A DNA stretch of 57,225 bases from Phycisphaerales bacterium (lineage in GTDB: Bacteria > Planctomycetota > Phycisphaerae > Phycisphaerales > SM1A02), in assembly GCA_022446795.1 (NCBI GenBank), contig JAKVBX010000023.1:1-57225 (forward strand). The letters run 5' to 3'. Positions 20,681 to 30,294 of the stretch are shown piece after piece. Numbering within the stretch: position 1 is the stretch's first letter; every line of letters begins with the position of its first letter. A model generated the notes under the pieces. The model saw only the letters and a program-made list of their open reading frames with translations, was not told where the DNA came from and made no database searches. A program made the translations under genes and the position numbers.

Positions 20681-21397
20681 ATGGCGAGCAAGACGCCCAT
20701 TCTGATCGTCGAGGATGAACATGAGATCGGGGATCTCGTGCGACTCCATCTCCACAAGGAGGGGTACCAGACTGCCCTGGTGGAGTCGGGGGAAGCGGCA
20801 CTGAAGTACATCGACCGCCATGACGTGGCGCTGGTCGTTCTCGATCTGATGCTTCCGGGCATCGATGGCCAGGAAGTCTGTCGGCAGTTGAAGTGGAACG
20901 AGCGAACCCGCCACATCCCGATCGTCATGCTGACGGCTCGGGGTGAGGAATCGGACATCGTCTCCGGGCTGGAACTGGGTGCTGATGACTACATGGTCAA
21001 GCCATTCAGTGCCAAGGTCCTGATCGCGAGAATTCGCAAGGCCCTGAGCCGGAGCCAGGAGAAGCCGGTCACGGAGAAGGCAAAGGCCCGGACTCGAATC
21101 GGTGGCATCGAGATCGACGGGGATCGATACGAGGTTCGGGTGGATGAGATCCCGGTCAGTGTCACCAGCAGTGAGTTCCAGATCCTGAGCTTCCTGGCCT
21201 CCCGACCTGGATTCGTTCGCACTCGCGAGCAGATCATCGAGGCCACACATGGTCCACGGGTCGTCATGTCCAATCGGACGGTTGATGTCCACATCACATC
21301 ACTGAGACGGAAGTTGGGCGCTGCCGGCGATCTCATTGAGACGGTCCGTGGGGTGGGATATCGCCTGGAAGACAGTTCCAGGGTTGCCTCACGATGA
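20681..21397 (+). CDS. phoB: OmpR/PhoB-family response regulator
   Basis: DNA-binding response regulator of 238 residues. The receiver domain (1-120) has acidic pocket Glu11-Asp12, phospho-acceptor Asp55 in LVVLDLMLPG and Lys107 in YMVKPFS. The C-terminal winged helix (about 135-235) ends with the family pattern RTVDVHITSLRRKLG and ETVRGVGYRLE. Context identifies it as PhoB: it is coupled to a histidine kinase, then a Na/Pi cotransporter and phoU. It would activate phosphate-starvation genes, perhaps through the candidate Pho box at 23157-23185. GGGAG precedes the ATG by a few bases. The stop overlaps the kinase start (ATGA). Confidence 0.93.
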   Translation: MASKTPILIVEDEHEIGDLVRLHLHKEGYQTALVESGEAALKYIDRHDVALVVLDLMLPGIDGQEVCRQLKWNERTRHIPIVMLTARGEESDIVSGLELGADDYMVKPFSAKVLIARIRKALSRSQEKPVTEKAKARTRIGGIEIDGDRYEVRVDEIPVSVTSSEFQILSFLASRPGFVRTREQIIEATHGPRVVMSNRTVDVHITSLRRKLGAAGDLIETVRGVGYRLEDSSRVASR

Positions 21398-23229
21398 GGT
21401 CCTCCGAGACCCGCCGATCGCTGCTCTGGCGGCTGGGACTACCGATCGTGGTGGTGCAGGTGGTCGCTTCCATCGTTGTCGCCTGGATCACTGTCTCGGT
21501 GGTCGAGGAGTTCAACCAGTCGAAGATTGAAAGCCTGCTCTCTCGGTACACGATGCACCTGGAGGTCCTGCTTCAGTCTGACCCGAAGGCTGAGGACGCC
21601 ATTCTCAGGGAATGGAATTCAACCTCGCCGGATGTCCGGTTGACACTCATCGGGGGATCCGGTCGAGTGCGATGGGACAGTGATTCGGATTCCACCAAAA
21701 TGGAAAATCACGGTGATCGACCGGAGATCCTGGGGGCCATCACCTCCGGCCAGGCGGTACAGACACGGTTCAGCGCGACCATCGGCGAGCGCATGACCTA
21801 TGTGGCGAGGCGGATTGAGATCGGCGGCGAGCCGTTCATCATTCGGGCATCGATGCGGAGTGATCTGGCACAGGCCCAGGTCATGCCGATCATCTGGTCG
21901 ATCGTGATCGTTCTTGCGGCGCTCCTGGGTGTGACGCTCTGCACGGTGGCGTTCGTTTCACGCGATGTCGATCGACACGTCCGAAGGCTCAGCGTCGGAG
22001 CGGAGCGGATTGCCGCCGGGGACTTTGAATACCGGTCCGAGCCAGATCTGCCCGGCGCCCTGGCGACCCTGGGGATGTCGCTTGATCGAATTGCCAATGA
22101 CCAGGGCGAGCGAATCCGCCAATTGTCTGTCCAGCAGAGCGAGATGCAGGGCATCCTGTTCGCCATGAGTACCGGCGTGATTGCCATGGACCTGGATGGG
22201 CACGTGATCAGCGTGAATCCGGCGGCTTCCCGCATCCTGGCTCTCGATGAACTTGATGTCCGTGGTCGGCCTCTCGAGCGGCTTGAGATTGATGCCCGGT
22301 TGATCGAGTTCGCCCGATCGGTATCCGAGGCGGGCGGGCACGGATCTTCCGAGATCACCCTTGATTCCCTGGAAGGCCGGCAGATCGTGATCAATAGCGA
22401 GCCGATTCATGATGATGATGACCGGCAGGTCGGAACGGTCCTGGTTCTCGATGATGTCACCCGACTGAGGCAACTTGAAGCCATGCGGACTGACTTCGCC
22501 TCCAATGTCTCCCACGAGCTTCGTACGCCGATCACGGCGATCCAGGGATATGCGGAGTTGCTTCTTGATGAGCAGGATGACGCCAAGAGACGACAATACA
22601 CCGACGTCGTGGCCCGTCATGCAACGCGGCTCTCCGCGATCATCGAGGACCTGCTGTCCTTGTCCCGGCTGGAGGACCCCGAGGGATCACATCTTCCGGA
22701 GCGTGAGATTCTCGCGGCACACGAGTTGCTTGATGGTGTTGTTCGTGCCTGCAGTGATGAAGCGGCGAGCCGGGACATCGTCCTGGAGGTCGAATGTGAT
22801 GAGCCGCTGACGTGCCATGGCAGCCGGCAATTGCTGGAGCAGGCGGTCAGCAACCTCGTGGTCAACGCCATTCGTTACGGGCCACCACAATCGACCGTCC
22901 GGCTGTCTGCCTGGTCACAAGGGTCATTGCTGCATATTGCGGTGGCGGACGAGGGGCCCGGGATCGACGAATCCTCTCGTCGGCGACTGTTCGAACGGTT
23001 CTACCGGATCGACCAGGGGCGAAGTCGTGAAGTGGGCGGAACGGGCCTGGGCCTGGCGATCGTGAAGCACATCGCCCTGGCTCATGGTGGCTCAGTCGAT
23101 GTTGAGACGGCTCCGGGGAGGGGTTCTGTCTTTACCGTGACGCTGCCGACCTCATCTGAACACAATCTTAACACCCAGTACATTCAATCCTCAGATGGTG
23201 CGAGTCTCATGCCCCAACACGGCCACTGA
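21394..23229 (+). CDS. phoR: PhoR-type membrane sensor histidine kinase
   Basis: Inner-membrane sensor kinase of 611 residues. Order: transmembrane helix about 10-36, periplasmic domain about 37-165, second helix about 165-190, HAMP (CTVAFVSRDVDRHVRRLSVG region), PAS-like domain (about 245-350) and HisKA with His374 in SNVSHELRTPITAIQGYAEL. The HATPase has N-box NLVVNAIRYG, G1 DEGPGID, F-box LFERFYRID and G2 GGTGLGLAIV. It autophosphorylates and passes phosphate to PhoB. E. coli PhoR has no large periplasmic domain; the PhoR/PhoP-type kinases of Bacillus do. The last codons contain an AT-rich direct repeat annotated separately. Gene symbol is inferred from the operon. Confidence 0.92.
   Translation: MRSSETRRSLLWRLGLPIVVVQVVASIVVAWITVSVVEEFNQSKIESLLSRYTMHLEVLLQSDPKAEDAILREWNSTSPDVRLTLIGGSGRVRWDSDSDSTKMENHGDRPEILGAITSGQAVQTRFSATIGERMTYVARRIEIGGEPFIIRASMRSDLAQAQVMPIIWSIVIVLAALLGVTLCTVAFVSRDVDRHVRRLSVGAERIAAGDFEYRSEPDLPGALATLGMSLDRIANDQGERIRQLSVQQSEMQGILFAMSTGVIAMDLDGHVISVNPAASRILALDELDVRGRPLERLEIDARLIEFARSVSEAGGHGSSEITLDSLEGRQIVINSEPIHDDDDRQVGTVLVLDDVTRLRQLEAMRTDFASNVSHELRTPITAIQGYAELLLDEQDDAKRRQYTDVVARHATRLSAIIEDLLSLSRLEDPEGSHLPEREILAAHELLDGVVRACSDEAASRDIVLEVECDEPLTCHGSRQLLEQAVSNLVVNAIRYGPPQSTVRLSAWSQGSLLHIAVADEGPGIDESSRRRLFERFYRIDQGRSREVGGTGLGLAIVKHIALAHGGSVDVETAPGRGSVFTVTLPTSSEHNLNTQYIQSSDGASLMPQHGH
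23157..23185 (+). promoter_or_regulatory. Candidate Pho box (11-base direct repeats) upstream of the Na/Pi transporter
   Basis: TGAACAC (23157-23163), TTAACAC (23168-23174) and the more divergent TACATTC (23179-23185) recur every 11 bases: seven-base units separated by four, the architecture PhoB binds. The tract lies in the last codons of phoR, 83 bases before the transporter ATG, in a visibly AT-richer patch. Confidence 0.45.
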
Positions 23230-23267
23230 AGCACAGGGCCGGTTGGCACAGATGCCATGGAGTATTG

Positions 23268-24440
23268 ATGTCGCAGAGCATCAAGCAACCCAAGATCCGC
23301 CCGTTCTGGGTGCATGTGGTCATGGCGTTGGTGGCGCTCTACTTCTTTCTGTGTGCCATCAATGTCATGGGCGCCGGGTTGAAGGAGATTGGAAAGTCGA
23401 CTGACTGGCTCCAGGTCGCCATCGCACAAGGCGACAATCCGCTCGTCGCGTTGTTCACGGCGGTGTTGATCACGTCAATCGTGCAAAGTTCGTCTTTCAC
23501 GACATCGCTGATCATCACCCTGGTTGCAGCGGGAGAGTTGAGCGTTGGAACGGCGATCTTCGCGGTGATGGGTGCCAATATCGGCACCAGCATCACCGGT
23601 CTGATCGTGTCGCTCGGAACGATGCGGATTCGACGGCAGTTCCGGCGGGCCTATGCCACCGCTCTGATGCATGCGATTCCCAATGTCCTGACGGTCATGC
23701 TCCTGTTCCCGCTCGAATGGGCAACACGGTCATTGCCCGGAAGCGATGGCAAGGGCGTGCTGATGCGGGTATCGGAATGGCTTACGCAACTCATCGGGCT
23801 GGAGCCCGGGACGAAGCCAAACAGTCCCATCAAGGCCATCACGAAGCCAGTGGTCAGCGCCATCAAGGACATGGCCGGGTGGTTTACGGAGAATACGACT
23901 GCCATTGGCCTCACGGTTGCGATCATCGGGCTTCTCATTCTGTTCATGTCGCTACTGGGCCTGGTGAGCAATCTCAAGGGTGCATTGCTTCAACGGCTTG
24001 AGGGCCTGTTCAGCAAGGTGATCTTCCGGAACGACTTCCTGGCCTGGATTTCCGGGATCAGCTCAACCGTGGCTGTCCAGTCCAGTTCCGTGACCACGAG
24101 CCTCATGGTGCCCATTGCCGGCGCCGGTGTCGTGAAGTTGCGACGGGTTTTCCCCTTCATGCTTGGATGCAATCTCGGGACAACCGTGACCGGTGTCATC
24201 GCCGCGACGGCGAACCCGACGGCCGGCGCCGTGACGGTCGCCATCTCTCATGTGCTGTTCAACCTCGGGGACAACGCGATCTGGTATCCACTCAAGATCA
24301 TTCCGATCCGATTGGCCAAGTGGTACAGCGGCCTCGCGTCACGTTCGCCCCGATATGCGTTTATCTTCCTCCTGACGATCTTCGTGGTTGCCCCTGTCTT
24401 GGGATTGGTGATCACAGAGGTGTTCTTCTACAGCGACTAG
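23268..24440 (+). CDS. Sodium-dependent phosphate cotransporter (NptA/YjbB, PNaS family)
   Basis: Membrane protein of 390 residues that couples phosphate to sodium movement. The family hallmark is the internally duplicated QSSS motif: IVQSSSFTTSLI (Gln73) and VAVQSSSVTTSLM (Gln271), each preceded by a hydrophobic helix. GANIGTSITGLIVSLG and GCNLGTTVTGVIAA are the matching partner motifs of the two repeats. No PhoU domain is fused; phoU is a separate gene 44 bases downstream. The ATG at 23268 has GGAG five bases upstream and is preferred over the adjoining TTG. It replaces the PstSCAB importer that most bacteria keep with phoU. Confidence 0.92.
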   Translation: MSQSIKQPKIRPFWVHVVMALVALYFFLCAINVMGAGLKEIGKSTDWLQVAIAQGDNPLVALFTAVLITSIVQSSSFTTSLIITLVAAGELSVGTAIFAVMGANIGTSITGLIVSLGTMRIRRQFRRAYATALMHAIPNVLTVMLLFPLEWATRSLPGSDGKGVLMRVSEWLTQLIGLEPGTKPNSPIKAITKPVVSAIKDMAGWFTENTTAIGLTVAIIGLLILFMSLLGLVSNLKGALLQRLEGLFSKVIFRNDFLAWISGISSTVAVQSSSVTTSLMVPIAGAGVVKLRRVFPFMLGCNLGTTVTGVIAATANPTAGAVTVAISHVLFNLGDNAIWYPLKIIPIRLAKWYSGLASRSPRYAFIFLLTIFVVAPVLGLVITEVFFYSD

Positions 24441-24484
24441 CTTCGGTTTTCCGATGACTTTCGGGACCAGAAGGAGAGCCTGCG

Positions 24485-25195
24485 ATGCTCGGCCAACTCA
24501 TTGCTGCCTTGAAGACGGACAACAAGCTGGATGAGGCGTTCGCCCAGTTTCGAGAGATGCTGACCGCTGCGCAGTGGATGTTCGGCGAGGCCAACGATGT
24601 CCTTCGTGGCAAGAAGAACGGAGATGATGTCCGGGACCCGCTCTACAGCAAGGACCAGGAGGTCAACACGCTGCTGCGTTCGATTCGCGGCAACATCCTG
24701 ACACACCTGTCCGTCAATCCCGTGGCTGACATTGCCGGTTGCCTGGCGCTCATGAGCATCGCCAAGGATGCGGAACGCATTGGCGACTACTGCAAGAATG
24801 TCTTCGAGGTGGGTCAGTACTACGAAGGTGACTATGAGATTGGGCGGTACCACCAGCCACTCGAGGATATTCGGAAGCAGGTGACCACGTTGTTCGACGA
24901 TGTCATCTCGGCCTTCATGGAATCAAGTACCAAGCAGGCCAAGTCCGCGATCAAGGCGGCGGACAGGATTCGTGGTGAATGTGACGCGGTCGAGGAGACA
25001 CTGCTTCGAGATCGCCGCACCGTGGAAACTCACGCGGCCGTGGCGTACTCGTTGCTGTCCCGTCACTACAAGCGCGTCGCCTCGCACCTGGCCAACATCG
25101 CCACGGCCGTGTTTGGTCGGATCGAGGACCTCGACTTCCGAAAGCCCAAGAAATCGGCTGAGGAGACAGGAACGGACGCGGAAGCGGCAGGATGA
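24485..25195 (+). CDS. phoU: PhoU-family phosphate regulator
   Basis: Cytoplasmic regulator of 236 residues made of two three-helix PhoU repeats. The repeats carry acidic metal-binding segments: ISIAKDAERIGDYCKNV-type motif in the first (MSIAKDAERIGDYCKN) and the related RHYKRVASHLANIATAV in the second, where the acidic residues are largely replaced by Arg, Ser and His. PhoU proteins dampen PhoR signalling and modulate the phosphate importer. GGAG precedes the ATG. The stop overlaps the arsenate-reductase start (ATGA). The C-terminal tail is Lys/Glu-rich and probably disordered. Confidence 0.9.
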   Translation: MLGQLIAALKTDNKLDEAFAQFREMLTAAQWMFGEANDVLRGKKNGDDVRDPLYSKDQEVNTLLRSIRGNILTHLSVNPVADIAGCLALMSIAKDAERIGDYCKNVFEVGQYYEGDYEIGRYHQPLEDIRKQVTTLFDDVISAFMESSTKQAKSAIKAADRIRGECDAVEETLLRDRRTVETHAAVAYSLLSRHYKRVASHLANIATAVFGRIEDLDFRKPKKSAEETGTDAEAAG

Positions 25196-25617
25196 CCGAG
25201 CGCCCGCGGATTCTCTTCCTGTGCACGGCCAATAGCGCGCGGAGTCAACTGGCCGAGGCCATTCTGCGGGATCGAGCCGCTGATCGGATGGCGGTCTGCA
25301 GCGCTGGAACGAAACCAAGCACGGTGCACCCACTGGCGATCGAGGTCCTGGCGGAAGAGGGAATATCCTCCGAGGGGCTGCGGTCGACAAGTGTCGAGGA
25401 CGTCCTTCGAGACGGTCCGGTGTCATTGACGATAGCCGTCTGCGCTTCAGCAGCCGAACACTGCCCGGTGGTTGCCGGCGAACAGGTGCGCTCGTGGCCC
25501 TTTGATGATCCTGCAGCGTGTGATGGCGACGACGAGGCGAAACGCAACGCGTTCAGAACGGCGCGTGACGCCATTGCCTCGAAGATCGACGCCTGGTTGG
25601 AGGCGGGGGGCGCCTGA
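25192..25617 (+). CDS. arsC: Thioredoxin-coupled arsenate reductase (LMW phosphatase fold)
   Basis: Cytoplasmic enzyme of 141 residues that reduces arsenate to arsenite. The P-loop is FLCTANSARSQ with nucleophile Cys11 and Arg17 (CX5R). Two further cysteines, Cys84 and Cys91 in VCASAAEHC, have the seven-residue spacing of the redox pair in thioredoxin-dependent ArsC, and the general acid is in WPFDDP (Asp105/106). A plain low-molecular-weight tyrosine phosphatase would lack that pair. It is coupled to phoU by ATGA and is the last gene of the phosphate operon, which makes sense because phosphate importers admit arsenate. No arsenite exporter is in the window. The stop is three bases from the convergent sodN stop. 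Confidence 0.88.
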   Translation: MTERPRILFLCTANSARSQLAEAILRDRAADRMAVCSAGTKPSTVHPLAIEVLAEEGISSEGLRSTSVEDVLRDGPVSLTIAVCASAAEHCPVVAGEQVRSWPFDDPAACDGDDEAKRNAFRTARDAIASKIDAWLEAGGA

Positions 25618-25620
25618 GTC

Positions 25621-26103
25621 CTACTCGGTGTACCAGCCGGCGACGGCTGCGATGGCGGCGTCCAACTCATCCACGTTGGCCACGTCGACGGTCTGTTTGC
25701 ATTTCATGGCGGCAACCAGGATGCGATGGAAGGCGGCCAACTGCGTCATGTAGGTGTCATGGCCATCCTCACCGGCAGGGACGGCTTTCACGCGCTGGGT
25801 GAGGAAGTAGTAGGACGCCACGTCCTGGATGTTCTGGGCGTGCTGGTCCTTGGTCATGACCCAACGGGAACCCTGGTTGAAGTCCTGGAGGGGATGGTCG
25901 GACTGGGCTTCCATCAGGGCGGCCATCTGCGTCACGGCCTTGCGGATGGTCAAGGCGTCTTCCTTCATCTGGGCGACCCGGGCCGGATCGTCGTAGATCC
26001 CGCAGGGGATCTGGCAATGGGCGCTGGCCAACGGCTGGCTGGCCATGAACCAGGCTCCGGCCAGGAAGGACAGGGCGGCGATGATGAAGAGCGGGCGATT
26101 CAT
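25621..26103 (-). CDS. sodN: Nickel superoxide dismutase with Sec signal peptide
   Basis: Disproportionates superoxide to oxygen and hydrogen peroxide using nickel. The nickel hook HCQIPCGIY matches HCxxPCGxY: His29, Cys30, Pro33, Cys34, Gly35, Tyr37 of the precursor. Residues 1-28 form a Sec signal peptide with a hydrophobic core (FIIAALSFLAGAWFMA) and an ASA cleavage site directly before His29, so signal peptidase would release exactly the N-terminal His that binds nickel. Classical Ni-SOD precursors have a short propeptide cut by SodX; no sodX is visible here. Mature length is 132 residues against about 117 in Streptomyces. The SRWVMTKDQHA and YYFLTQR segments belong to the four-helix bundle. 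GGAAG precedes the ATG at 26103. Confidence 0.93.
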   Translation of the reverse strand: MNRPLFIIAALSFLAGAWFMASQPLASAHCQIPCGIYDDPARVAQMKEDALTIRKAVTQMAALMEAQSDHPLQDFNQGSRWVMTKDQHAQNIQDVASYYFLTQRVKAVPAGEDGHDTYMTQLAAFHRILVAAMKCKQTVDVANVDELDAAIAAVAGWYTE

Positions 26104-26153
26104 GGTGACTTCCTTTGTTTCTCTGGTGGAGCGTAACCGGGGGATTCCGGAGG

Positions 26154-27758
26154 TTAGTTCAACTGACCGATCTTGAAGGTCTGCGATTGGGCGCGATCCC
26201 AGGCCTTTTGCCAGAGGGCGTTGCCGCCGCCCTGGACCAGTTCACCGGGTTCCAGGAACTCGTAGATGTCGAGGTACGACCGGACCATGTTCGAGTTGAT
26301 TCTTCGCCACATGATGTCCGCGGTCAGTTCGCTCGGATGATCAAGGCCTGCTGCGGCGACGACCTCGGCGAGGGCTTCGAGCGTATTGCGATGGAAGTGA
26401 TAGGCGCGGTCGGCCTTCTCGTCCACGACGAGGCCTCGGTACAGCTTGGGATCCTGGGTGGCGACACCAACCGGGCAGGTGTTGGTGTGGCATCGCTGGG
26501 CCTGGATGCAGCCGACGGAGAACATGAAGGCTCTCGCGGCATTGCACCAGTCGGCGCCGATGGCCATGCGGCTGGCCATGCTGAAGGCGTTGGAGATCTT
26601 CGCGCTGCAGCCGACCTTGATCTTGTCCCGGAGATTGCAGCCCACGAGCGCGTTGTGGACGAAGAGCAGGCCCTCGGTCAGCGGCAGGCCGAGATGATCA
26701 AGGAACTCGACTGGACCAGCACCGGTTCCACCCTCGCCACCGTCAACGACGATGTAGTCCGGCAGGACTCCGGTTTCAAGCATGGCCTTGCAGATGGCAA
26801 GGAATTCGTAGGGCCGGCCGATGCAGAGCTTGAAGCCCGAGGGCTTGCCGCCACTCTTCTGCCGCAGCAGGTCAGTGAACTCAAGTAGTTCGATGGGGGT
26901 GGAGAAGGCCTTGTGATAGGCCGGCGAAATGCAGTCCTTGCCCACGGGCACGCCGCGGACCCGGGCGATCTCCTCGTCGACCTTCGGGCCCGGGAGGACA
27001 CCGCCGTGACCGGCCTTGGCGCCCTGTGACACCTTGATCTCGACCATCTTGATCTTGTCGTTGACGGCGGTCTCGTGGAACATCCCGGGATCGAACTGCC
27101 CATCCTTTGTCCGGCATCCGAAGTATCCCGTGCCGATCTCCCAGACCAGGTCACCACCGTGCTTGAGGTGGTAGGGGCTCACGCCACCCTCGCCGGTGTC
27201 GTGATAGAAGTTGCCGCGCTGGGCACCCTTGTTGAGGGCCAACAGGGCATTCGGACTCAGGGCACCGAAGCTCATGGCCGAGATGTTCAGAAGGGAGGCC
27301 GAATAGGGCTGGGTACAGGCACTGCCACCGATCGTGACACGAAACGGTTCCGTCGCCTTGGGTCGAGGCGTGATGGAGTGGGTCAGGAACTCGTATTCCG
27401 CGTTATAGACGTCCAACTGCGTGCCGAAGGGTTTGACGTCCTCGACGTTCTTGGCACGCTCGTAGATCGCGGATCGTTGCGTCCGGTTGTACGGCCGACC
27501 CTGCTCGTCCTGCTCGACGAAGTACTGCATGATCTCCGGCCGGATGCTTTCGGCCATGAAGCGCAGGTGTCCCAGGAGTGGGTAGTTGCGGAGAATGCTG
27601 TGATGCGGTTGAAGCCGATCCCAGATCGCGACGCCGCCCAGGGCTGCCGAGGGGATGAGACCCCAGAGCCAGTGCCAACTGAACAGCAGGCAGAAGATCA
27701 GGCTGAGCAGCGCGAAGACGACGAGGAGCAGGGACAGGATGAGGCTGGTGATTCGCAT
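26154..27758 (-). CDS. Membrane-anchored FMN-binding glutamate-synthase-like protein
   Basis: Product of 534 residues with one or two N-terminal membrane helices (LILSLLLVVFALLSLIFCLL) followed by the glutamate synthase FMN domain. Landmarks: EGGVSPYH, KVSQGAKAGHGGVLPGPKV, DYIVVDGGEGGTGAGP and the iron-sulfur cysteines in CIQAQRCHTNTCPVG. It lacks the glutaminase and central domains of GltB, so it belongs to the stand-alone FMN_dh-like GltS group (YerD type) whose electron donor and substrate are mostly untested. The start at 27758 is chosen at the membrane helix with AGGAG ten bases upstream. It is 50 bases upstream of sodN on the same strand and 64 bases downstream of the esterase gene, so the three may share a transcript. 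Confidence 0.87.
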   Translation of the reverse strand: MRITSLILSLLLVVFALLSLIFCLLFSWHWLWGLIPSAALGGVAIWDRLQPHHSILRNYPLLGHLRFMAESIRPEIMQYFVEQDEQGRPYNRTQRSAIYERAKNVEDVKPFGTQLDVYNAEYEFLTHSITPRPKATEPFRVTIGGSACTQPYSASLLNISAMSFGALSPNALLALNKGAQRGNFYHDTGEGGVSPYHLKHGGDLVWEIGTGYFGCRTKDGQFDPGMFHETAVNDKIKMVEIKVSQGAKAGHGGVLPGPKVDEEIARVRGVPVGKDCISPAYHKAFSTPIELLEFTDLLRQKSGGKPSGFKLCIGRPYEFLAICKAMLETGVLPDYIVVDGGEGGTGAGPVEFLDHLGLPLTEGLLFVHNALVGCNLRDKIKVGCSAKISNAFSMASRMAIGADWCNAARAFMFSVGCIQAQRCHTNTCPVGVATQDPKLYRGLVVDEKADRAYHFHRNTLEALAEVVAAAGLDHPSELTADIMWRRINSNMVRSYLDIYEFLEPGELVQGGGNALWQKAWDRAQSQTFKIGQLN

Positions 27759-27822
27759 CTGGTCGGAGCTCCTGTATTCACGAGTCAAGGGCGATGGTGA
27801 TCGTGCCTTGAGATGGTAGCAC

Positions 27823-30294
27823 TCAGCGGGCTCGATCCCCGAGGGCGGATTGCCGGGGATCGAATGACCAGTCCTCGGCAAAGAACCCGGTTCCGACGAC
27901 GCCGGAAGGTCCCTGTCGCAGTGACTCCGGCGCCAGGATCATCCAGTCCGGCCAACCGACGCCGGCAAAGAAGAACGGCATCTGTTCCGTCAGTCGATCC
28001 CCCGGGAGTCCACTGCCGCCGACCACGCCGACGCTGGCCAGGTCGCTCCCGGGGCGTGGGCGGATGAATACGGTGGCGAGATCGTCTCCGGTGATCACCT
28101 GGCCGTCGAGTCGCAGACCGCCGCGTTCCAGGATCAGCGGGCTGTCGGGCACCAGTGTGTTCCAGTGTGCGTGCGTATCGGCATTGCCGTACAGGACCAC
28201 GTTGCGGTCCGGTTCGGCTGATGGTTCGAATTCCGTGTCGGGCACGAAGGGGAGGTAGCCGTTTCCGCGGTACCAGAATCGTTCCGCGTCCAGCCGTGCC
28301 CGGGCCCGGTTCCGCGCCGTCTCGGCTTTCGTGCCACGGGTTCCATACACGAGGAGAACATTGTTGTTGAAGGCGTCGCGGAAGGGACCGGCCCGGTGTG
28401 GTCCCTTGAGGTCGGCCGAGGCCGGCCCGGTCACCACCCAGGAACCGTCACGTTTCGCGATATGCAGGGCATCATGATCCGCGGGGCGGTCGGACTCCAG
28501 CGTCGTTCCATCGATCTCCAACTGGAACAGATCGGTTTCCGCCGGGAAGTGGGAGAGGCCGACCGACAGTCGACTGACGTTCTCCGTCGTACCGGTGATC
28601 GTCCCCTTGTCCCGTTGGCGTGCGAGGTCCACTCGGCTGGGTTCCAGGCACACCTCCTGCGATTCGATGGTCACCCAGTGATTCGTGGCCGAGGCCCGCG
28701 GATCCACGGTGGTGAAGTCGATGCGATCGATCGTGGCTGGATCGGGGCGTTCGCGTTCCTGGAGGAAGCTGAACAACGGTGGCCAGTCCATGCACTGGTT
28801 GCCCCACCAGTGCCCGGCACCGGGCCGCTCGTAGTAGGTCCAGTCCGGGTGGTAGCCGCCCAGGACCTCTCGCATCTGACGCGCCTGGTCGACCGGCACG
28901 TTGTTGTCGGCGTCACCATGAAGCACGTAGATACCGAACTGATCGAGGTTGTCCTTCATCAGCAGCGTGTCGCTGGGATTGGCTGCTCGATGCAGGATCT
29001 CCTCGATACCGCCGTCCCGGGCGTATCGTTCCGGCCCGCCGTAGGTCCAGAACGAAATCCATCCGGCACTGGGCGCGATGGCGGCCCACTGGTCGGGAAA
29101 CGTGGCGCCCAGTTGCCAGGTGCCGTGTCCACCCATCGAGTGTCCCGTGAGCCAACGTCGGGCGGGATCACTCGGATAGCGTTCCGCGGCATCCGTGAGT
29201 ACTTCCATCGCATCGCGACGGCCCCAGTGTTCCCAATCGAATCCGAATGGGCGGCGATTGGTGGGTGCAACGACATGGACCCATTCGCGCGGTCGATAGC
29301 AGGCGGCCTGGCCGCGAGCTTCCACGCTGGCGCCATGAAGAGACAGGGCCAGGCCGGGCAGATCCTCGGCGTCCTCTCCTGGAACCGCTGGCCGAACGGC
29401 GTAGTACTGCACGCTTCCATCGATATCGCTCTGGAACGTGCGATGGTGAAGGTCCGATGGCGTCTTGACGCTCAGCGTGATCTCTTCGACATCAAGGACC
29501 GACGAGCCATCTCGAAGTCGCAGCCTGACTGGGACGTCCTGGCTCGGTGCGTCCATGCTGCAGCTGATCCGGAATGGGACCTTCAGGAAACTCATGGGTT
29601 GCAGGGTGTCGAGCTTGGTCGCCGTGGTGAACCCCTGCACGCTGGCGTCCAGCCACAAGCCGTCAAGTGGATCTGGGCTGACGTTGTAGATCAGCATCGC
29701 GGCCATGACATCAATTGGTTCACCGGTGACCAGGTCCGGGAGCGTTTGATCCTGTGTCCCGATGAACGCGACGGTGTCGCCCGGGTTGGACATTTCCATC
29801 TCGGCCACGGCCGTGGCGGATCGAACGATGGGCTTCAGGGGTCCTCGACCGGAACGAAACAGCAGTTCGTTTCGACCGTTCTGCACCATGAACGGCAATC
29901 GGAGCGTGCCTCGGTTGTAGACATCGCCACCGCGGGGTTCCCCGTTCACGTATGCCAGGGAGTGACCCCGGATATCAAGCAGGGCGGGGTAGGCCTCGTC
30001 CGATTCGAAGGCATAGAAGACGTATCCGCCCCGTGGGCCCGTGACCCGGCCCTTGTCATCGGGTTCCAGCGGGGTCCACGTGAGGGTCGAGCCGTCATCA
30101 TGTTCCACGGTGTCTCCGGCAGCGGGGGCGGTCCAGGTTCCCGTGACGATGGCGTGCTGCACGGCATCGGTATGGACCGGTCGTCGCCAACGCGATCCGG
30201 TCGACTCGATGGCCAAGGCGCCGCTGGGTTCGATGATGTCGGGAACGGCGGCCAGTGACGTCACCAGGACAACGACGAGGCTCAAACTGAACAT
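27823..30294 (-). CDS. Large secreted prolyl-oligopeptidase-like esterase/peptidase
   Basis: Secreted hydrolase of 823 residues with an N-terminal signal peptide (MFSLSLVVVLVTSLAAVPD). An N-terminal beta-rich region of about 300 residues precedes an alpha/beta-hydrolase domain (about 310-560). The catalytic set is Ser386 in GHSMGGHG, Asp461 or Asp463 in HGDADNNVP and His495 in GAGHWWG, as in feruloyl-esterase and S9-type enzymes. A further C-terminal beta region (about 560-823) has no recognised function. It may deacylate or cleave extracellular polymers or peptides; substrate unknown. GGGAG precedes the ATG at 30294. It is the first gene of the minus-strand run leading to sodN. Confidence 0.82.
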   Translation of the reverse strand: MFSLSLVVVLVTSLAAVPDIIEPSGALAIESTGSRWRRPVHTDAVQHAIVTGTWTAPAAGDTVEHDDGSTLTWTPLEPDDKGRVTGPRGGYVFYAFESDEAYPALLDIRGHSLAYVNGEPRGGDVYNRGTLRLPFMVQNGRNELLFRSGRGPLKPIVRSATAVAEMEMSNPGDTVAFIGTQDQTLPDLVTGEPIDVMAAMLIYNVSPDPLDGLWLDASVQGFTTATKLDTLQPMSFLKVPFRISCSMDAPSQDVPVRLRLRDGSSVLDVEEITLSVKTPSDLHHRTFQSDIDGSVQYYAVRPAVPGEDAEDLPGLALSLHGASVEARGQAACYRPREWVHVVAPTNRRPFGFDWEHWGRRDAMEVLTDAAERYPSDPARRWLTGHSMGGHGTWQLGATFPDQWAAIAPSAGWISFWTYGGPERYARDGGIEEILHRAANPSDTLLMKDNLDQFGIYVLHGDADNNVPVDQARQMREVLGGYHPDWTYYERPGAGHWWGNQCMDWPPLFSFLQERERPDPATIDRIDFTTVDPRASATNHWVTIESQEVCLEPSRVDLARQRDKGTITGTTENVSRLSVGLSHFPAETDLFQLEIDGTTLESDRPADHDALHIAKRDGSWVVTGPASADLKGPHRAGPFRDAFNNNVLLVYGTRGTKAETARNRARARLDAERFWYRGNGYLPFVPDTEFEPSAEPDRNVVLYGNADTHAHWNTLVPDSPLILERGGLRLDGQVITGDDLATVFIRPRPGSDLASVGVVGGSGLPGDRLTEQMPFFFAGVGWPDWMILAPESLRQGPSGVVGTGFFAEDWSFDPRQSALGDRAR

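Follow-up and report, generated by a model that had tools for sequence, protein, structure and literature searches.

A gene for a nickel superoxide dismutase (Ni-SOD), sodN, was found on the minus strand of a 57,225-nucleotide stretch of DNA from a Phycisphaerales bacterium (contig JAKVBX010000023.1 of assembly GCA_022446795.1; hereafter the window), and its product is, as far as its sequence tells, a Ni-SOD of a divergent, exported class that constitutes a conserved and widespread variant of the known enzyme. The occurrence of a predicted signal peptide ending at the N-terminal histidine (His1) of the nickel-binding hook, the failure to find the protease SodX, and the recurrence of this layout across phyla all point to such a class. 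Reading these data jointly, we consider it likely that this divergent Ni-SOD is exported by the Sec pathway, that one cut by signal peptidase I frees His1, and that nickel is bound outside the cytoplasm. The features of the gene and of its precursor are given in Table 1.

Table 1. Features of the exported Ni-SOD gene and of its precursor, with positions in the window.
Feature	Coordinates	Strand	Basis
sodN, exported (signal-peptide) type Ni-SOD, 160-aa precursor	25621..26103	-	ATG open frame; Pfam Sod_Ni, 107.6 bits
Putative ribosome-binding site AAGGAAG	26109..26115	-	5 nt before the sodN ATG; read from the sequence
Predicted Sec-type signal peptide, residues 1-28	26020..26103	-	sequence; -3/-1 rule and hydrophobicity compared with 91 relatives
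Putative Ni-hook HCQIPCGIY, mature residues 1-9	25993..26019	-	sequence; hook common to 105 pattern-collected relatives
Predicted mature domain, 132 aa, four-helix bundle	25624..26019	-	AlphaFold2 model; best PDB matches are Ni-SOD chains

The open frame, whose interval includes the stop codon, begins at an ATG and encodes a precursor reading MNRPLFIIAALSFLAGAWFMASQPLASA and, past the predicted cut, HCQIPCGIYDDPARV.... Its identity as a Ni-SOD, already proposed in a sequence-only reading of the window, is borne out by the Pfam model Sod_Ni (PF09055; 107.6 bits, cut-off 25) together with the hook HCQIPCGIY. The score obtained with the NCBIfam sodN equivalog model (TIGR02753; 43.3 bits) falls below the cut-off of 90 and was a first sign of a non-textbook Ni-SOD. 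No other Sod_Ni gene was found in its own assembly (3.54 Mb, 95.96% complete), and a promoter scan returned no candidate. From residue 29, the protein reads HCQIPCGIYDD, where His1, Cys2 and Cys6 stand at the positions of the nickel ligands of characterised Ni-SODs. The sequence-only reading had described a Sec signal peptide whose final ASA is immediately followed by HCQIPCGIY, and these 28 residues are indeed encoded on the minus strand, with the features of a Sec and signal peptidase I substrate: a short, positively charged n-region (MNRP), a hydrophobic run (LFIIAALSFLAGAWFMA), and a c-region (SQPLASA) closing on ASA. The hydrophobic maximum of this leader reaches 2.78, versus -0.41 to 1.89 in the canonical sequences described below, and the leader is not the short, non-exporting propeptide of the canonical sodN/sodX system. 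Neither a twin-arginine motif (by sequence and script) nor a lipobox with Cys at +1 occurs in it, the Cys of the window protein being at +2, after His. Between residues 15 and 40 of the precursor, cut sites compatible with the -3/-1 rule (scored as A/G/S at -1 and A/V/S/T/G/L/I at -3) are found after residues 16, 17, 27 and 28; the first two fall within the hydrophobic run, and site 28 (A-S-A before H) has Ala at -3 as well as at -1.

Relatives came from two sources: 392 genomes of the phylum were searched with a profile, which detected Sod_Ni in 55 (hereafter the HMM sample), and public genome contigs were queried with the window protein, giving 55 loci in a set biased toward the window's own type. 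Open frames were gathered by the Ni-hook pattern, hook invariance being therefore partly by construction, and start codons were chosen by script, a choice that is probably wrong for L133 and L138. From 144 loci, the 30 belonging to the SodX search (L087-L116) were set aside to leave 114; five loci without a hook ORF under the pattern and length limits (L002, L085, L086, L143 and L144) were dropped to give 109, and merging four duplicates resulted in 105 unique mature sequences. Among the dropped loci, L143 and L144 do carry a hook, preceded by a leader of the signal type with G or S at -1, L085 and L086 are without N-terminus, and L002 is a signal peptidase locus.

These 105 sequences can be divided into 14 canonical and 91 exported-class members. 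The canonical members have the hook HCD[GI]PCG and short propeptides of lower hydrophobicity, and the exported ones the hook HC[EQ][IVM]PC[GA] and hydrophobic leaders (one residue being unread in one row), with position 3 occupied by Glu or Gln in the exported class versus Asp in 14/14 canonical sequences. Within the exported class, Pro5 is found in 91/91, Gly7 in 90/91 and Tyr9 in 85/91 sequences, with Phe in six, figures that are partly fixed by the collection pattern. In the tree, the canonical 14 are set apart by a supported branch (97/93; 140 columns, bootstrap not settled). According to record titles and taxonomy labels, the exported class occurs in Planctomycetota, Latescibacterota, Gemmatimonadota and Fidelibacterota (Marinimicrobia), and also in Thermodesulfobacteriota, Verrucomicrobiota, Lentisphaerota and others, mostly in metagenome-assembled genomes and with uneven sampling of phyla outside the window's own. 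Among the 55 sodN-bearing genomes of the phylum, 41 have the exported type only and 14 the canonical type; both types occur together in three genomes (G100, G169 and G191). A third cysteine (C107) was rejected as a universal feature of the relatives: it is present in 50/50 genome-contig relatives, a set partly picked by the motif MKCKQTVD, and in 21/41 of the HMM sample.

In the exported class, the -3/-1 rule holds exactly before His1 in 82 of the 91 sequences, as compared with 275 of 3486 other positions (7.9%; binomial p ca. 1e-79, in a test that takes relatives as independent). The same is true of 34/41 sequences in the HMM sample alone and of 37/41 in a set thinned to less than 60% identity. 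Upstream of His1, the entropy of the thinned set is 1.75 bits at -1 and 1.94 bits at -3, and ranges from 2.8 to 3.7 bits at -2 and at -4 to -12; with low values at -1 and -3 only, the leader appears to drift while the cut adjoining His1 is held. A hydrophobic N-terminal segment was identified in 89/91 exported sequences with script-chosen starts, and in the remaining two given an earlier ATG (upstream frame read by eye). The exceptions to the rule comprise L027, with Thr at -1, and eight sequences with R, L, W or F before His1 (L050, L069, L129, L132, L133, L137, L139 and L140). These eight form one clade (93/80, bootstrap not settled), most of them have an extended c-region, and since no rule-compatible site exists at their His1, another protease would be needed. 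L138, from the window's own family, is counted among the 82; its hydrophobic segment is separated from His1 by about 25 residues. A lipobox-like pattern lies within the leader of 10/91 exported relatives, the window protein not among them, and some exported relatives may thus be lipoproteins; a Tat-like motif was seen in 2/91.

The propeptide of canonical Ni-SODs is cut by a cognate peptidase that is encoded nearby (PMC3919588, in excerpt), and processing by a cognate peptidase is also mentioned in the available part of PMC8346466. The sequence-only reading had suggested that signal peptidase I could serve for both export and hook exposure, a view that a sodX gene elsewhere in the genome would speak against. 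In the window's own assembly (95.96% complete), the search for such a gene was negative: the best match to the SodX model (TIGR02754) scored 13.5 bits against a cut-off of 63.25, none was obtained at E<=0.01, and the 13.5-bit match is itself a 519-aa signal peptidase I (TIGR02227, 94 bits). The cognate SodX of the canonical sodN/sodX system was thus not found in this genome. Throughout the 55 sodN genomes, SodX exceeded the cut-off in nine, always beside a canonical sodN, and four weaker SodX-like genes (G100, G249, G044 and G072) likewise adjoin a canonical sodN. A SodX-like gene is found beside 13 of the 14 canonical sodN genes, the 14th (G102) being at a contig end. Among the matches listed, none adjoins an exported sodN, and the closest one to share a contig with it is ca. 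90 kb away (G287). The cut site conserved in 82/91 sequences, the negative search for SodX, and the presence of SodX-like genes beside 13 of 14 canonical sodN genes but, among the matches listed, beside no exported one, all argue for signal peptidase I in this double role. The SodX model also gives weak matches in six of 14 control genomes, which are without Sod_Ni, and canonical propeptides have A-x-A before His1 in 14/14 sequences (V-x-A in one); judging from these weak matches and propeptide ends, SodX is related to signal peptidase.

In native Ni-SOD, His1 is held by Glu17 and Arg47 (PMC5722923, in excerpt). An AlphaFold2 model of the mature 132 residues, computed with 46 relatives, predicts a four-helix bundle with a pLDDT of 93.0, the first ten residues being low (ca. 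57). The top VIA-align match was a Streptomyces Ni-SOD (1q0d_A; Z 14.3, rmsd 2.0, 111 residues, 18% identity), followed by the family of FliS chaperones (Z 12.1). Helical bundles generally score high and the Z value is indecisive alone, but the predicted Ni-SOD fold is convincing when considered with the hook. A sequence search of the PDB retrieved Ni-SOD at E 0.63 with the single protein and at E 0.0027 with a profile.

In the mechanism that we propose, the chain would cross the inner membrane unfolded via Sec, and the housekeeping signal peptidase I would remove residues 1-28, a single cut releasing the protein and freeing the His1 amine. The mature chain would fold to the four-helix bundle, presumably as a hexamer as in Streptomyces, and, once outside the cytoplasm, would bind Ni(II) with His1, Cys2 and Cys6 as ligands. 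Sec substrates cross the membrane unfolded, and nickel should therefore bind outside the cytoplasm; we infer this site of loading from Sec export, the counts of nickel importers giving no proof. NicO was detected in 5/14 canonical and 5/41 exported-only genomes (p=0.10) and CbiM in 6/14 and 6/41 (p=0.055); with either importer in 6/14 and 10/41 (p=0.31), the two classes were not separated significantly. HupE/UreJ occurs in 7/55 sodN genomes, and none of these three importers was found in the window's own genome.

Past the last conserved Tyr, 175 of 953 tail residues are His in the exported class versus 0 of 209 in the canonical class, and tails with at least three His are found in 31/91 exported and 0/14 canonical sequences (an alternative tail cut gave 33/91; 31/91 is the figure quoted here). 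These His-rich tails look like built-in metal collectors and may help to gather metal in about one third of the relatives, though not in the window protein, which ends GWYTE without such a tail. Strongly His-rich C-termini were seen in L135, L036, L057 and L124; in L135, a member of the window's own family, 11 of the last 43 residues are His. In some periplasmic CuZn-SODs, His-rich N-terminal extensions have been proposed to aid metal acquisition (Battistoni 2001, cited in PMC8382915, in excerpt).

If the exported type is active outside the cytoplasm, the cells that have it still require a SOD in the cytosol. Fe/Mn-SOD (PF02777) was detected in 29/41 exported-only versus 1/14 canonical genomes (Fisher p=7e-5), and CuZn-SOD (PF00080) displayed the opposite trend (3/41 versus 5/14, p=0.02), kinship being ignored in both comparisons. 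The co-occurrence with Fe/Mn-SOD fits a different compartment for the exported type. In the window's own genome, the one Fe/Mn-SOD begins MAYTLPDLPYG without a preceding signal peptide, and the search for a CuZn-SOD was negative; all seven distinct Fe/Mn-SOD N-termini inspected begin with MA or MS and a short stretch to LPY, without signal peptide. The exported Ni-SOD would thus protect the periplasm or cell surface against superoxide, a post that CuZn-SOD holds elsewhere, and the cytosolic Fe/Mn-SOD would serve the interior. Neither Fe/Mn-SOD nor CuZn-SOD was detected in 12/41 exported-only genomes, so this division of labour is not universal and other protection must exist there. Genomes G127, G287, G311 and G331, which are 98-99% complete, have an exported Ni-SOD with neither of the two other enzymes detected. 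In the Fe/Mn-SOD of the window's own genome (L151, G000:C11:29000-30600, 222-1085), the metal-binding DVWEH is immediately preceded by a Cys-rich loop, GVCGCECGCHP; shorter Cys-bearing loops occur there in L154, L155 and L156, which belong to the same family or order, and are absent in L145-L147.

Part of these data could be explained by a cut elsewhere, for instance after residue 27, or by retention of the leader as an anchor, with a second peptidase trimming to His1. A cut between LAS and AHC is also compatible with the rule and would leave one extra Ala, and the eight relatives with R, L, W or F at -1 must be trimmed by something beyond signal peptidase I alone. We hold this explanation to be unlikely, given that only -1 and -3 are kept small upstream of His1 (37/41 thinned relatives) and that the flanking genes, in what is a weak test, suggest no trimming partner. 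Dual targeting is very improbable: it would take the internal ATG nine codons before His1 (MASQPLASA preceding HC) as the start of a second, cytoplasmic form, whose short propeptide would resemble canonical ones such as MSEIKRDLPIAQA, but a start codon is missing at this position in the close relatives L033 and L034, no SodX was detected for processing, and a plausible ribosome-binding site sits before the long form.

The exported protein might also be a periplasmic metal binder built on the Ni-SOD hook, such as a nickel or copper scavenger, store or buffer, instead of a working SOD. Such a role would suit the His-rich tails (31/91), Glu or Gln at hook position 3 where all 14 canonical sequences have Asp, the third Cys in 21/41 relatives of the HMM sample, and the NCBIfam sodN score below cut-off. 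It is nonetheless quite unlikely in our view, since Pro5, Gly7 and Tyr9 are kept besides the ligands (the collection pattern fixing part of this), the predicted fold is Ni-SOD-like, and the exported type co-occurs with Fe/Mn-SOD, as expected of a periplasmic SOD.

An exported Ni-SOD matured by signal peptidase I would share with the canonical SodN/SodX system of Streptomyces and marine cyanobacteria the hook HCxxPCGxY, the four-helix bundle and the need for a free His1. In contrast to that system, where a short propeptide is served by a dedicated peptidase, a full signal peptide is present here and no SodX was found. Cyanobacterial Ni-SOD is called cytoplasmic in the available parts of PMC8346466 and PMC8193680, and cyanobacteria with sodN but without sodX are read in the former as possibly unable to use Ni-SOD. 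Ubiquitin-NiSOD fusions occur in algae (PMC6332867, in excerpt) and represent another case of an N-terminal leader preceding Ni-SOD; cleavage behind the ubiquitin would plausibly expose the N-terminus of the enzyme without SodX, but the leader is there a eukaryotic ubiquitin with no Sec export, and here a signal peptide. The periplasmic CuZn-SOD (SodC) is likewise an exported SOD with a His-rich extension in some members, but its fold and metal are unrelated and its extension is N-terminal, whereas that of the exported Ni-SOD is C-terminal. Among the literature matches listed, which cover titles and abstracts outside the subscription literature, none describes a Ni-SOD whose signal peptide runs up to His1, and prior notice is possible. 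The available parts of PMC11636452, PMC7055735, PMC3578206 and PMC10783094 contain nothing further on exported Ni-SOD, and that of PMC2667541 lists no SodN in its three Planctomycetes.

More tentatively, the exported class may represent a second widespread Ni-SOD route, relying on export and the housekeeping signal peptidase alone, with nickel taken up outside, the tail acting as a collector in some lineages, and the canonical propeptide possibly a relic. If so, a nickel enzyme would be run without a dedicated protease and perhaps without nickel import, the His-rich tail fused in some lineages would be its own nickel collector, and the canonical A-x-A propeptide, cut by the signal-peptidase-like SodX, could be the relic of a signal peptide. 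Should the exported class work as argued, many sodN genes (41/55 sodN-bearing genomes of the phylum have this type only) would belong to another compartment and another metal economy, and the His-tailed members would be a compact model system for the loading of metal outside the cytoplasm. The class would also offer a testable origin for SodX.

Flanking regions were clustered, and clusters of at least three loci were considered. Besides sodN, no family was found in more than 10 of the loci compared, a weak negative since the greedy ORF caller misframed some GC-rich loci. The largest neighbour family comprises 10 loci, all from Latescibacterota or Gemmatimonadota, and the few families that cross phyla comprise 3 to 7 loci, one of them being an opposite-strand ORF overlapping sodN. 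In the window, the plus-strand genes convergent with sodN (20681-25617) form a row of response-regulator-like and sensor-kinase-like frames (by eye), followed by genes for a Na/Pi cotransporter, PhoU, and a LMW phosphatase/arsenate-reductase-like product. The arsC-like, PhoU and Na/Pi genes adjoining sodN recur mainly in L032 and L034, where relatives of all five genes are present. On the minus strand, 50 bp upstream of sodN, positions 26154-27881 encode a protein with a glutamate-synthase domain and, judged by eye, a hydrophobic segment at its N-terminus; related frames were not found in L032 or L034 and are present in L033, L035 and L036.
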